The notes below the pieces were generated by a model, which saw only the letters and a program-made list of their open reading frames with translations, was not told the origin of the DNA and made no database searches. From Arcticibacter pallidicorallinus (GTDB lineage: Bacteria; Bacteroidota; Bacteroidia; Sphingobacteriales; Sphingobacteriaceae), in the NCBI RefSeq assembly GCF_003002875.1, contig NZ_PVTH01000010.1, forward strand, positions 1 to 64,000: a stretch of DNA of 64,000 nt, written 5' to 3'. Each line of letters opens with the position of its first letter. Within the stretch, counting starts at the first letter, position 1. The translations under genes and the position numbers were made by a program. Positions 42,958-47,590 of the stretch are shown in pieces.

Positions 42958-44550
42958 TTACTGAATACTTTGGTTCTTTTGTCGCGCAAGAATCTTCAGC
43001 AACACGCCATTCGTCCAGCCAAAGCCGTCCTGGTTCGGGTACTCGCCGCCCCCGGCAAAAACCGCGGTATCGACCACATTATACTTTTCCATCAGCTTCC
43101 CCGTCTTATTGAAAACGTTGACGTTCAAACTGCTCCATCTGCGGGACACTTCGCGGGACAACTCCTCCTTTTTATAAGTAGACAAGCCGGCGATCGCCAT
43201 CCATTGCAACGGAGCCCAGCCATTAGGCGCGTCCCATTGCTGCCCTGTGGTCGCCAGGGTCGAAACCAGACCTCCCGGCTTGAGAAACTTCTGCTGCAGG
43301 GTATTTGCCATCGTATCGGCACGGCTTGTAGCTATCATATTGAAATACATGGGATAGACACCGGCCAGACTCATAGAGGAAGTCGCCATTTCCGACTTCC
43401 AGTTGTAGTCTCGAAACCATCCTGCCTCTTTGTCCCAGCAGTATTTCATAATCGCTATTTTGCGTTGTTCCGCTGAGCGCGTCATGAAGTCTTTTGCTTT
43501 ATCGTCTCCGCCGATTTGGTAGGCTTTAGCCAGCATGATTTCAAGATGATATAAGAGGGCGTTGAGGTCGACAGGAATGATATCCGTGGTCTGTATGGTA
43601 TTCAGGGTCTTGCCATCGCTGAACCAGCGACTGCTGTAGTCCCAGCCCGACTCCGCTCCGGAGCGAAGATGGCGGTAAACTTCAGGTTTTGAGGCGGAGC
43701 TGTTCGCCGCGATGGCAACGTCTTCCGAGTAAGCTTCCTCCCGGGGCCAGTCGCCCGAATCGAAATAGCGGTTCAGCTTTTCGCCATCAGGCATAAACAC
43801 GACATGCAGGTTAGCGCCCTTCTTCGCATCGTTATTATTCATCCAGAAACTGTATTCTCTCTCCAGAGCATCGCGGTTAGCTTTCAATACGGAATCACCT
43901 TTCAGCTTTTTGTTCTCCATGAGCAGCTTTACCATCAATGAAAAGTATGGAGGCTGAGATCGGGTAAGATAATAGGTACGGTTACCGTTGGGGATGAAGC
44001 CGTAAGTACGAATGAGGTAGGCAAAGTTGTTCACCATGCTTTCGATTAGGTCGGTGCGGCCGCTTTCCTCCAGCCCCAGCATCGTGAAATACGAATCCCA
44101 GTAATAGACTTCGCGGAACCGGCCACCCGGCACCACGTATGGCTGCGGAAGCGCCAGAAGAGAGCTGTACTGGTAGTATTTGTCGGGCCTGCGCGTCAGT
44201 ACATCCCAAAGAGAGCGAATATGCGGTTCGACGCCTGCGCGAATATTGGTTTGGTAGTCTTTTGCAACTTCTTCCGGCAAACTGAAGTTCTTGTCCACAA
44301 AGGCCTTCAGATTGAAGCCGGCCTTATTCTTCTCTTCCTGATAAGTTTTGAGAATGTCTTCCGGATCGCGCTTAGGCATACAATCGGTGAAAGTTTTACT
44401 GTCTTCAAACACATGGCCGGCCTGCACAGCCTCAAATAATCCCGGAAAGAGGTCGCGGGGAGACTGATGTTTGGTTTCGGTTTTTTGTTTGCAGGCGGAA
44501 AGGCTCAAGATCAAGAGGACGATAAAAAAGGAGGCGGACTTAAAAATCAT
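42958..44550 (-). CDS. treA: Periplasmic trehalase (GH37), lipoprotein
   Basis: Hydrolyses trehalose to two glucose molecules outside the inner membrane. The 530-aa protein has a lipoprotein signal ending LSLSAC (Cys20). Both trehalase signatures are present: PGGRFREVYYWDSYFTMLGL (about 140-160) and QWDAPNGWAPLQWMAI (about 435-450). The catalytic Asp region SGWDYSSRWFS is about residue 305. Length fits GH37. Expression is monocistronic, with no trehalose transporter beside it. Confidence 0.93.
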   Translation of the reverse strand: MIFKSASFFIVLLILSLSACKQKTETKHQSPRDLFPGLFEAVQAGHVFEDSKTFTDCMPKRDPEDILKTYQEEKNKAGFNLKAFVDKNFSLPEEVAKDYQTNIRAGVEPHIRSLWDVLTRRPDKYYQYSSLLALPQPYVVPGGRFREVYYWDSYFTMLGLEESGRTDLIESMVNNFAYLIRTYGFIPNGNRTYYLTRSQPPYFSLMVKLLMENKKLKGDSVLKANRDALEREYSFWMNNNDAKKGANLHVVFMPDGEKLNRYFDSGDWPREEAYSEDVAIAANSSASKPEVYRHLRSGAESGWDYSSRWFSDGKTLNTIQTTDIIPVDLNALLYHLEIMLAKAYQIGGDDKAKDFMTRSAEQRKIAIMKYCWDKEAGWFRDYNWKSEMATSSMSLAGVYPMYFNMIATSRADTMANTLQQKFLKPGGLVSTLATTGQQWDAPNGWAPLQWMAIAGLSTYKKEELSREVSRRWSSLNVNVFNKTGKLMEKYNVVDTAVFAGGGEYPNQDGFGWTNGVLLKILARQKNQSIQ

Positions 44551-46020: not shown

Positions 46021-46626
46021 ATGAATATGAAAATGAAATTAACATCAGTATTAGCCATTGCAGCAATCGGCTTATTTTCGGCGTTCAAGCCAGCTTTAAA
46101 AACAGAATCTTTTACTGTTGATACAAAGAACTCATCCATCAAGTGGTTAGGTGAAAAAGTAACAGGCAAGCATTTCGGAACGATCAACTTGTCTTCGGGC
46201 AGCTTGAATTTTAACGGGAATAAGTTAGCTGGTGGTTCATTCACTGCAGATATGAACTCCATCGTTGCTACTGACGTTCAGGGAGAAACTGCTCAGAAAC
46301 TGGAAGGTCACCTGAAAGCTGATGATTTCTTCGGAACTGCGAAATATCCAACTTCTACCTTTAAGATCACTAAGGTTACTCCAGCCGGAGCAAGCCAGGT
46401 AAATATCACCGGTGACCTGACTATCAAAGGGATTACCAAGCCGCTTACTTTCCCTGCGACAGTAAAAAGACAGAATAACGCAGTTGTTGCTGTAGCGAAG
46501 GGTGTTAAAGTAGACAGAACGAAATACGATATCCGTTACAACTCTAAGAGCTTCTTTGAAAGCATTGGAGACAAAGCTATTTATGATGATTTCGTACTTG
46601 ACTTTAATCTGGTAGCGAAGAAGTAA
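46021..46626 (+). CDS. YceI family exported protein
   Basis: A 201-aa lipocalin-like beta-barrel protein of the YceI family, which binds polyisoprenoid-like lipids in solved members. Signal peptide MNMKMKLTSVLAIAAIGLFS with cleavage near FKPA. Family features include FTVDTKNSSIKWLGEKVTGK, GTINLSSGSLNF, LKADDFFGTAKYPTSTFKI and ITGDLTIKGITKPLTFPA. The start at 46021 was chosen from the promoter position. Own terminator. Function in this organism is unknown, though such genes are often stress-induced. Confidence 0.9.
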   Translation: MNMKMKLTSVLAIAAIGLFSAFKPALKTESFTVDTKNSSIKWLGEKVTGKHFGTINLSSGSLNFNGNKLAGGSFTADMNSIVATDVQGETAQKLEGHLKADDFFGTAKYPTSTFKITKVTPAGASQVNITGDLTIKGITKPLTFPATVKRQNNAVVAVAKGVKVDRTKYDIRYNSKSFFESIGDKAIYDDFVLDFNLVAKK

Positions 46627-46653
46627 TAAGAAGAAATCTAAAGTAGAAAATAC

Positions 46654-46693
46654 AAAGCCTGCATCATAATTTTGATAGCAGGCTTTTATTTTT
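46654..46693 (+). terminator. Terminator after yceI
   Basis: AAAGCCTGC and GCAGGCTTT form a stem with a 15-nt loop, followed by TTATTTTT. Confidence 0.85.
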
Positions 46694-46837
46694 ACGGAGA
46701 GTTTGGACATCTCGTCTGAAATATCTAATATCACACCCTGACTTTCAATCTAAGTTAGGATCCAAGACTAAAGAGAGAAATATTTGTTGAAAAAAGAATG
46801 AAAGACAAACTAAAAGTATAATAAGAAAATACTTGTG

Positions 46838-46900
46838 AAAAAAGAAACGCCTCCAGAAGGAGGCGTCGAACTAAGGATACTATCCTTAGTGAAGTTCTTG
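46838..46900 (-). ncRNA. Predicted small RNA, about 63 nt
   Basis: A complete minus-strand transcription unit without a reading frame. The promoter at 46905-46936 would start RNA near 46900. The RNA folds into a first hairpin, ACTAAGGATA with TATCCTTAGT (10 bp, 1-nt centre, 46870-46890), and a second one, ACGCCTCC with GGAGGCGT (46847-46866), followed by TTTCTTTTTT, a textbook terminator. No ATG is present in it and no minus-strand gene follows before 44550. No family is recognised; a regulatory RNA is the likely role. Confidence 0.65.
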
Positions 46901-46904
46901 ACTA

Positions 46905-46936
46905 CAAAGATACAGTAATAACAACGTAAAATGCAA
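46905..46936 (-). promoter_or_regulatory. Promoter of the predicted small RNA
   Basis: Minus strand TTG-N21-TATCTTTG (-7 box 46905-46912, TTG 46934-46936). The upstream element lies over the start codon of the divergent NYN gene (ATG 46931). Confidence 0.7.
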
Positions 46937-47569
46937 GAAATAGTTCAAAGAAAAGAAAGAGTAGTTGCGTACATAGATGGTTTTAACCTGTATTTTGGAA
47001 TGCGAGAAGCTGGCTTTGATAGCTGCAGGTGGTTAAATATAAAACTCCTTGTGGTGAATTTATTGAAGCCACATCAGGAATTAACTGGAATAAAATATTT
47101 CACAAGTCGAGTAAGCAACAACCCCGACAAGCAAAAGCGCCAGTCTACATATATCGATGCGTTAGAAAGCACAGGGATCAAAATCGTGTATGGCAATTAT
47201 CAGGACGGCACCCAAGAATGCAAAAGATGTGGACATATCTGGCGCACCGCCAAAGAGAAAATGACCGATGTGAATATTGCTACAGCCATTATCGTTGACG
47301 CTTTTAAAGACGAATACGATATGGCTATGCTCATTTCTGGGGATAGCGACTTAACACCCCCTATTAGAGAAGTCCACGCCCTATTTCCCAAAAAACGGAT
47401 ATTTATTTCATTTCCGCCTAAGCGACACAACTCTTCGATGACAGTGGCTGCAAAAGGTTCTCAAATCATAGGTAGAAAAAAACTCGTAGATTCACAGTTC
47501 GATCCTGAAGTGATAAGTAAAACAGGTTACAAATTAAAAATCCCACACGAGTGGAAGGCAGACGTCTAA
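46931..47569 (+). CDS. NYN-domain protein (LabA/DUF88 family) with a CxxC knuckle
   Basis: A 212-aa PIN-like, probable metal-dependent RNase. The catalytic acidic set is visible: D16 and N19 in YIDGFNLYF, D113 in KMTDVNIATAIIVDAF and the pair D138/D140 in LISGDSDLTPPIREV. An inserted CKRCGHIW (C97-x2-C100, H102) could bind zinc together with another ligand. The C-terminus (PPKRHNSSMTVAAKG) is basic and may bind RNA. Related proteins degrade structured RNA or act in defence systems; target unknown. It stands alone, divergent from the predicted small RNA. Confidence 0.85.
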   Translation: MQEIVQRKERVVAYIDGFNLYFGMREAGFDSCRWLNIKLLVVNLLKPHQELTGIKYFTSRVSNNPDKQKRQSTYIDALESTGIKIVYGNYQDGTQECKRCGHIWRTAKEKMTDVNIATAIIVDAFKDEYDMAMLISGDSDLTPPIREVHALFPKKRIFISFPPKRHNSSMTVAAKGSQIIGRKKLVDSQFDPEVISKTGYKLKIPHEWKADV

Positions 47570-47590
47570 GAGCCGCAACGCTCTGTTTAC

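Follow-up and report, generated by a model that had tools for sequence, protein, structure and literature searches.

A putative two-part module of a small structured RNA and a HEC-09-type NYN nuclease in Arcticibacter pallidicorallinus

The window analyzed here, a whole stretch of 64,000 nt at the start of contig NZ_PVTH01000010.1 of Arcticibacter pallidicorallinus, contains a NYN-domain nuclease gene on the plus strand and, immediately ahead of it on the minus strand, a promoter-like sequence followed by two hairpins. The locus raises two questions: whether the hairpins belong to a genuine small RNA gene and, if so, what such an RNA has to do with the nuclease beside it. An earlier note on this DNA had proposed an orphan, undescribed regulatory RNA, perhaps linked to the nuclease.

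The RNA gene and its nuclease neighbor

The promoter, the two hairpins, and the terminator that had been read on the minus strand were all present when the strand was read again. The predicted small RNA is approximately 60–63 nt long (positions 46838..46900, minus strand, with the 5′ end estimated from promoter spacing) and consists, from 5′ to 3′, of a short leader, the motif AACTTCAC, hairpin 1, a linker, the terminator hairpin, and a T run. Its putative promoter (46905..46936, minus strand) is of the Bacteroidota type, TTG-N21-TATCTTTG, with the TTG at 46936-46934, followed by 21 nt and the TATCTTTG box at 46912-46905; we take this arrangement to be the Bacteroidota consensus. The TTG had been placed on the start codon of the nuclease gene; it sits opposite codon 2 (CAA), directly beside the ATG. 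The gap between the TATCTTTG box and AACTTCAC is 8 nt, and the last two bases of AACTTCAC start hairpin 1 (ACTAAGGAT-AGT-ATCCTTAGT; 46870..46890, minus strand), whose core GATAG[CT]ATC (46884-46876, minus strand) is invariant in 32 of 32 aligned RNAs. Hairpin 1 had been described as a perfect 10-bp hairpin, which is accurate for the DNA palindrome, whereas the RNA would form 9 bp with a 3-nt AGU loop. A linker of 2 nt separates it from the GC-rich intrinsic terminator (46838..46867, minus strand), composed of hairpin 2 (GACGCCTCC-TTCT-GGAGGCGTT; stem-loop at 46867-46846) and TCTTTTTT up to 46838. The 8 bp attributed to this terminator are indeed perfect pairs, and its stem also has one G-U pair. 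As claimed, the transcript lacks any start codon (ATG, GTG, and TTG are all absent), and the 2.2 kb said to hold no minus-strand gene agree with a next plausible gene (42958-44550) that begins 2.3 kb away.

The predicted fold of the RNA region reached −26.6 kcal/mol (z −5.7; 0/200 shuffles as stable). Terminator-like sites were no more frequent in the region than in shuffles (5 found vs. 5.6 expected), so the terminator alone is unremarkable, as would be the case if a functionless hairpin and terminator had come together by chance. The RNA stands above chance because it is conserved in relatives, shows covariation, and has a promoter box upstream in most of them; conservation and covariation, together with the detector controls given below, rule out a chance origin, to which we assign a negligible probability. 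The region matches its own genome (G000) once, which excludes a repeat family of that genome. No Rfam 15 family matched the window's RNA at gathering score, and the best subthreshold matches (ncr1241, Phe_leader, and ncS025; 20.6–23.8 bits vs. gathering scores of 46–60) look like chance. The elements of 19 further loci also gave no match at gathering score, the Thr_leader match at L084 falling short of its own.

The adjoining gene (46931..47569, plus strand) encodes a protein of 212 aa of the HEC-09 family. The PADLOC profile PDLC04163 (E 1.2e-91) covers residues 9–209, nearly the whole protein, and the Pfam NYN family PF01936 matches with 49.3 bits vs. a cut-off of 24.2; we take HEC-09 in PADLOC to be a single-gene entry with one protein profile. 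The protein has the acidic residues D16, E109, D113, D138, and D140, which we presume to be catalytic; among 40 proteins, N19, E109, D113, D138, and D140 are invariant and D16 is found in at least 90%. Its predicted fold (pLDDT 81.7) matches the NYN structure 2qip (E 5.8e-11), and Foldseek returned unconvincing matches only beyond this one. Among NYN/LabA-like proteins, 2qip (VPA0982) is the nearest solved structure, with the NYN fold and the conserved acidic residues in common; it is a protein of no assigned function, unlike the predicted nuclease of the window. By profile and residues, the gene is predicted to encode a HEC-09-type nuclease, which may have an RNase or anti-phage role. The genome has a second NYN gene (G000:C9:18169-18576), with a higher Pfam score and no RNA element.

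Conservation and orientation of the RNA

A scan for close NYN relatives, using one genome per species, gave 31 loci, one of which (L032) has just 19 nt upstream. The divergent RNA was found upstream of NYN in all 30 readable loci, a set that includes near-copies and two loci on one contig (L028 and L044). All 30 have the invariant hairpin core and a terminator that starts with GACG (ACG in L039). Covariation was calculated from an alignment of 32 RNAs (the window, the 30 loci, and L046). Over all 17 stem pairs, 97.6% of cells were paired, 10 of the 17 pairs were changed in both partners, and covariation scored 0.408 vs. a shuffled mean of 0.193 (0/500 shuffles reached it); slid pairings scored at most 0.168. 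The RNAalifold structure omits one hairpin-1 pair (columns 16/30), an A-C mismatch in 8 of the 32 RNAs; without this pair, 99.0% of cells were paired, 9/16 pairs were changed on both sides, and the score was 0.412 vs. 0.191. Located halfway along hairpin 1 in alignment A1, this recurrent mismatch is perhaps a recognition feature. Conservation and covariance of the hairpins in relatives, which the earlier note had named as a test, are therefore present, with compensatory changes. The box TAnnTTTG occurred within 34 nt upstream of 24/32 RNAs vs. 4.7% of mononucleotide shuffles, and the box plus a TTG 16–24 nt before it in 22/32 vs. 1.2%; for L035, which is among the 24, the matched box lies at an odd distance, and the strict box is missing in 8/32 RNAs, including the four Chlorobium-like ones.

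The RNAs vary mostly within the paired regions of the stems, in the loop of the terminator, and at a few bases of the leader, and the alignment contains no long variable guide-like stretch. This pattern bears on the role of the RNA. The fixed structure, together with the invariance of the hairpin core and the conservation of the 5′ strand, would be as compatible with a ribonucleoprotein as with an antitoxin, and the element accompanies most NYN genes; the RNA might then be a required cofactor, activator, or sensor of the NYN protein, acting in substrate positioning or infection detection, and not an inhibitor. However, a guide-like stretch is precisely what is missing, and harmless NYN genes without the RNA should then be more common. 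We consider such a cofactor rather unlikely.

NYN 5′ regions were searched with a detector for a pair of neighboring hairpins and a T-rich tail, all within 160 nt; its thresholds are post hoc (written after examples had been seen), with shuffles and other genes of the loci as controls. It was positive in 74 of 92 distinct NYN 5′ regions (18 failed), on the same strand only in 24, on the divergent strand only in 34, and on both in 16, the last being put down to the symmetry of the element. Dinucleotide shuffles were positive in 4/1840 (same strand) and 19/1840 (divergent) cases, other genes in the same loci in 7/123, and window genes in 1/46, the single case resembling the terminator of the preceding gene. 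When 79 proteins with at least 150 domain positions were labeled, 44 were divergent, 23 same-strand, and 12 without the element; by eye, 8 of these 12 have two hairpins, some without a T run or with the T run in the stem, and the element is absent even by eye in 4/79 (L116, L156, L158, and L161). The script labels L083 and L085 as divergent (D); by eye, L085 is same-strand and L083 ambiguous. Over the labeled rows of a quick tree, the fewest orientation changes were four, and the 38-protein clade that holds the window's NYN (SH-aLRT 93) was entirely divergent.

The covariance model of the RNA, applied to the window and 39 loci, detected the divergent RNA in 22 of the 40 (E 8.2e-5 or better), with a single match in the window. 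On a Thermus oshimai plasmid (L081), the RNA is divergent to the NYN homolog (55.7 bits, E 1.5e-12). Same-strand matches just upstream of NYN were found in a phage contig (L085, E 1.3e-4), a Bacteroidota genome (L049, E 0.0011), a Streptomyces plasmid (L082, E 0.0015), and L070 (E 0.01); the match at L047 was weak (E 0.13). A DUF805 RNA (RF03081) match at L047:793-859, approximately 640 nt from the NYN relative, is probably unrelated. On the NYN strand of more distant homologs, inspection showed two hairpins separated by a short linker, the second being a terminator hairpin followed by a T run. ACCCC precedes or opens the first hairpin in 17 of 24 same-strand elements extracted. Two same-strand groups showed compensatory changes in 10/14 and 11/12 predicted pairs, in small, loose alignments in which up to 3/9 (or 3/12) sequences break a given pair. 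Judged by modest model scores and a shared layout, the same-strand and divergent elements look like one RNA family. The RNA is thus no orphan, as had been supposed, and recurs with this NYN family across several phyla in either orientation; its description as a structured RNA linked to the NYN gene agrees with the conserved fold and the recurrent pairing with NYN relatives.

Orientation also bears on the possibility that the RNA gene regulates NYN in cis, by antisense action or transcription interference where it is divergent and by attenuation where it lies on the same strand. The RNA promoter abuts the NYN start, the same-strand elements end 8–39 nt ahead of the start of the NYN match in 23/24 cases, like a leaky attenuator, and RCd22 likewise reduces abiF expression according to the passages available from PMC12373285. 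Yet a cis regulator would hardly survive a change of orientation with its RNA recognized by one covariance model on both strands, and antisense pairing does not need conserved sequence within a hairpin; we regard this explanation as unlikely. Because one apparent RNA family occurs in both orientations, a purely cis role is unlikely as the shared function, and a trans-acting RNA would be the simplest reading of the sequences. Likewise, the mutual interference between the two units that had been suggested is not the general mechanism because distant homologs have the element on the NYN strand.

Mobility and RNA copies without an intact NYN gene

In the window, yceI and a metallo-hydrolase gene lie 965 nt apart, with the RNA and NYN in an extra segment between them (46691..47590; the ends are estimates). 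In 5/5 same-genus genomes, yceI adjoins the metallo-hydrolase gene (gap of approximately 65–366 nt by alignment ends), the RNA was not found between the two, and NYN was not matched in any of the five. A search of the genus at the DNA level returned, outside the locus itself, short matches only (E 0.147 or worse). RNA and NYN, both missing in 5/5 congeners, are gained or lost together as one unit.

The distribution of NYN is sporadic because HEC-09 was found in 48/395 genomes of the phylum sample and relatives of the window's protein in 6/301 genomes of the family it belongs to, a count that includes the genome studied here. By tblastn, NYN relatives, all less than 60% identical, were found on 368 of 72,556 plasmid records, mostly of Klebsiella (207) and Escherichia (42); among the 40 plasmid matches listed, 24 are Enterobacterales plasmids of 3.4–5.1 kb. 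Four Enterobacterales plasmids of 3.5–4.3 kb (L083, L084, L117, and L118) have a NYN gene with upstream hairpins. One small-plasmid NYN type, including the hairpin stretch, is present on plasmids of 12/5426 E. coli genomes. A blastn search of plasmids with the window locus gave no match, nor did a protein scan of viral contigs for NYN; a DNA pattern search did locate RNA and NYN next to each other on one viral contig. There (L172:8809-9499) the pair lies beside a putative phage scaffold-like gene and a 977-aa ORF, a neighborhood that suggests a prophage cargo spot.

A scan of the phylum with the RNA model gave 53 places at E 0.01 or better, 43 of them at E 1e-5 or better; the 10 others, which look mostly like ordinary terminators, were omitted from the count. 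Beside the 43 strong matches, NYN was intact in 16, broken in 6, a remnant in 3, and undetected in 18, one of these 18 (L130) being cut by a contig end. The expectation that the RNA always adjoins NYN therefore held from one side only: 38/38 NYN proteins (at least 150 domain positions) of the divergent clade have the RNA, whereas 27/43 strong RNA matches lack an intact NYN. Family f18 accounts for 23 of the 27, and we regard it as Chlorobium-like on account of the grouping of its loci with a named Chlorobiaceae contig. In L088, L090, L105, and L111, NYN is in pieces and the divergent RNA still scores well. We dropped the argument that an RNA outliving NYN proves an antitoxin, NYN being an approximately tenfold larger mutational target.

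On the NYN side, copies without an intact NYN adjoin AbiD (L092), AbiE (L099), a PLD nuclease-like protein (L093), methyltransferases (L104 and L108), a type I restriction subunit (L131), and PDC-S32 (L127); DUF3800 proteins lie beside the RNA in L102 (no PADLOC match) and L115 (PDC-M04A). L103, L132, L133, and L134 resemble L092, L127, and L131 by sequence, and an Abi_2 gene is near two RNA copies with a NYN remnant, L092 (by HMM) and L103 (by sequence likeness). Other NYN-less copies adjoin housekeeping genes (e.g., L112). From these neighborhoods, either the RNA outlives NYN or it may also serve other defense genes. In Chlorobium-like genomes and elsewhere, RNAs lacking an intact NYN that are divergent beside other defense genes could represent a shared RNA or a gene-exchange site. 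The element might accordingly be a DNA-level hairpin or cassette border for the exchange of defense genes, its RNA-like appearance being secondary, as it flanks different defense genes in Chlorobium-like genomes, in three with a NYN remnant of just the first 20-odd positions. But most elements have a promoter box and a T run, compensatory changes maintain RNA pairing, and the hairpin itself bears no sign of recombination, which leaves a cassette border very unlikely.

Known systems and a proposed mechanism

The nearest tested analog is AbiF/RCd22 of Clostridioides difficile, in which, in the passages available, the protein is neutralized through binding by an RNA that lies upstream of abiF and has a terminator of its own (PMC12373285). 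As described there, a small structured RNA and terminator lie directly upstream of the toxin gene, as in the same-strand form here, and the system is phage-borne, as is our RNA-NYN pair on the viral contig. The two differ in that the AbiF/RCd22 partner is an Abi_2 protein instead of NYN, its transcripts are, in the same passages, 88–132 nt with two motifs instead of one unit of approximately 60 nt, and its RNA lies upstream of the toxin gene, whereas that of the window's clade is divergent. The abiF motif (RF03085) was not among the 12 Rfam matches up to E 10 in 46600-47100.

In type III toxin-antitoxin systems (ToxIN and kin), an RNA gene adjoins an endoribonuclease gene, as it does here. RNA, terminator, and nuclease lie on one strand in ToxIN; this order is found in the same-strand relatives but not in the window or its clade, which are divergent. 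The RNA here is a single unit, unlike the tandem repeats of ToxIN antitoxins, and the partner has a NYN domain and fold instead of being a ToxN-type toxin; the ToxN fold differs from the NYN fold. We did not assign the pair to type III or AbiF because the repeats, a ToxN or Abi_2 protein, and RF03085 are missing. The DUF3800 RNA motifs of Rfam are small RNAs that accompany a gene family of no known function, much as the RNA here accompanies NYN. Two NYN-less RNAs here adjoin DUF3800 genes, but these RNAs match no Rfam family up to E 1.

HEC stands for Hma-embedded candidate, and the passages available describe HECs as defense candidates, some of which were shown to work (PMC12988326). In Pseudomonas, again in the passages available, HEC-09 is listed among systems that correlated with susceptibility to phages and not with resistance (PMC12447246). 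The available passages on HEC-09 and HEC systems make no mention of an RNA partner of HEC-09, and among the matches listed from the open-access literature, no title or abstract named an RNA partner of NYN or HEC-09 genes. With no Rfam family at gathering score either, the claim that the RNA is undescribed stands as far as could be searched. The RNA-NYN module is new as far as the open-access literature shows; an earlier description may exist.

Sequence comparison strongly supports the partnership of RNA and NYN; that the RNA is transcribed, is bound by the protein, inhibits instead of activating it, and takes part in defense we infer. The explanation that we favor, with modest confidence, is that RNA and NYN form a mobile two-part module in which the trans-acting RNA is most likely the antitoxin of the NYN ribonuclease. 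The RNA would be a trans-acting transcript of two hairpins with a terminator of its own at the end. The NYN protein would likely bind hairpin 1 of this RNA and the conserved 5′ strand, which reads AACANCACC where the RNA is divergent and often ACCCC where it lies on the NYN strand. In this way the RNA would most likely keep the ribonuclease inactive. Should phage attack or loss of the element cut the supply of RNA, the nuclease would be freed, and growth or phage multiplication would be stopped. A nuclease checked by its RNA is the best fit because of the conserved acidic residues, the 2qip-like fold, the mobile carriage, and the HEC match.

A broader scheme is conceivable, if doubtful: an RNA-controlled NYN immunity spanning the phylum, in which the RNA of approximately 60 nt is the usual partner of HEC-09, is reused beside AbiD, AbiE, restriction-modification, DUF3800, and PDC-S32 genes as a sensor or safety RNA, and has flipped strand in evolution. 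The module is directly testable because natural versions exist on small E. coli plasmids (approximately 3.6–5.0 kb) and in two named Flavobacterium strains, of F. piscis (L027) and F. hydrophilum (L029). If the antitoxin explanation is true, HEC-09, known as one protein, would become a two-part RNA-protein system; it would add a NYN-fold enzyme to the RNA-controlled nucleases and would suggest how such nucleases can be carried safely.
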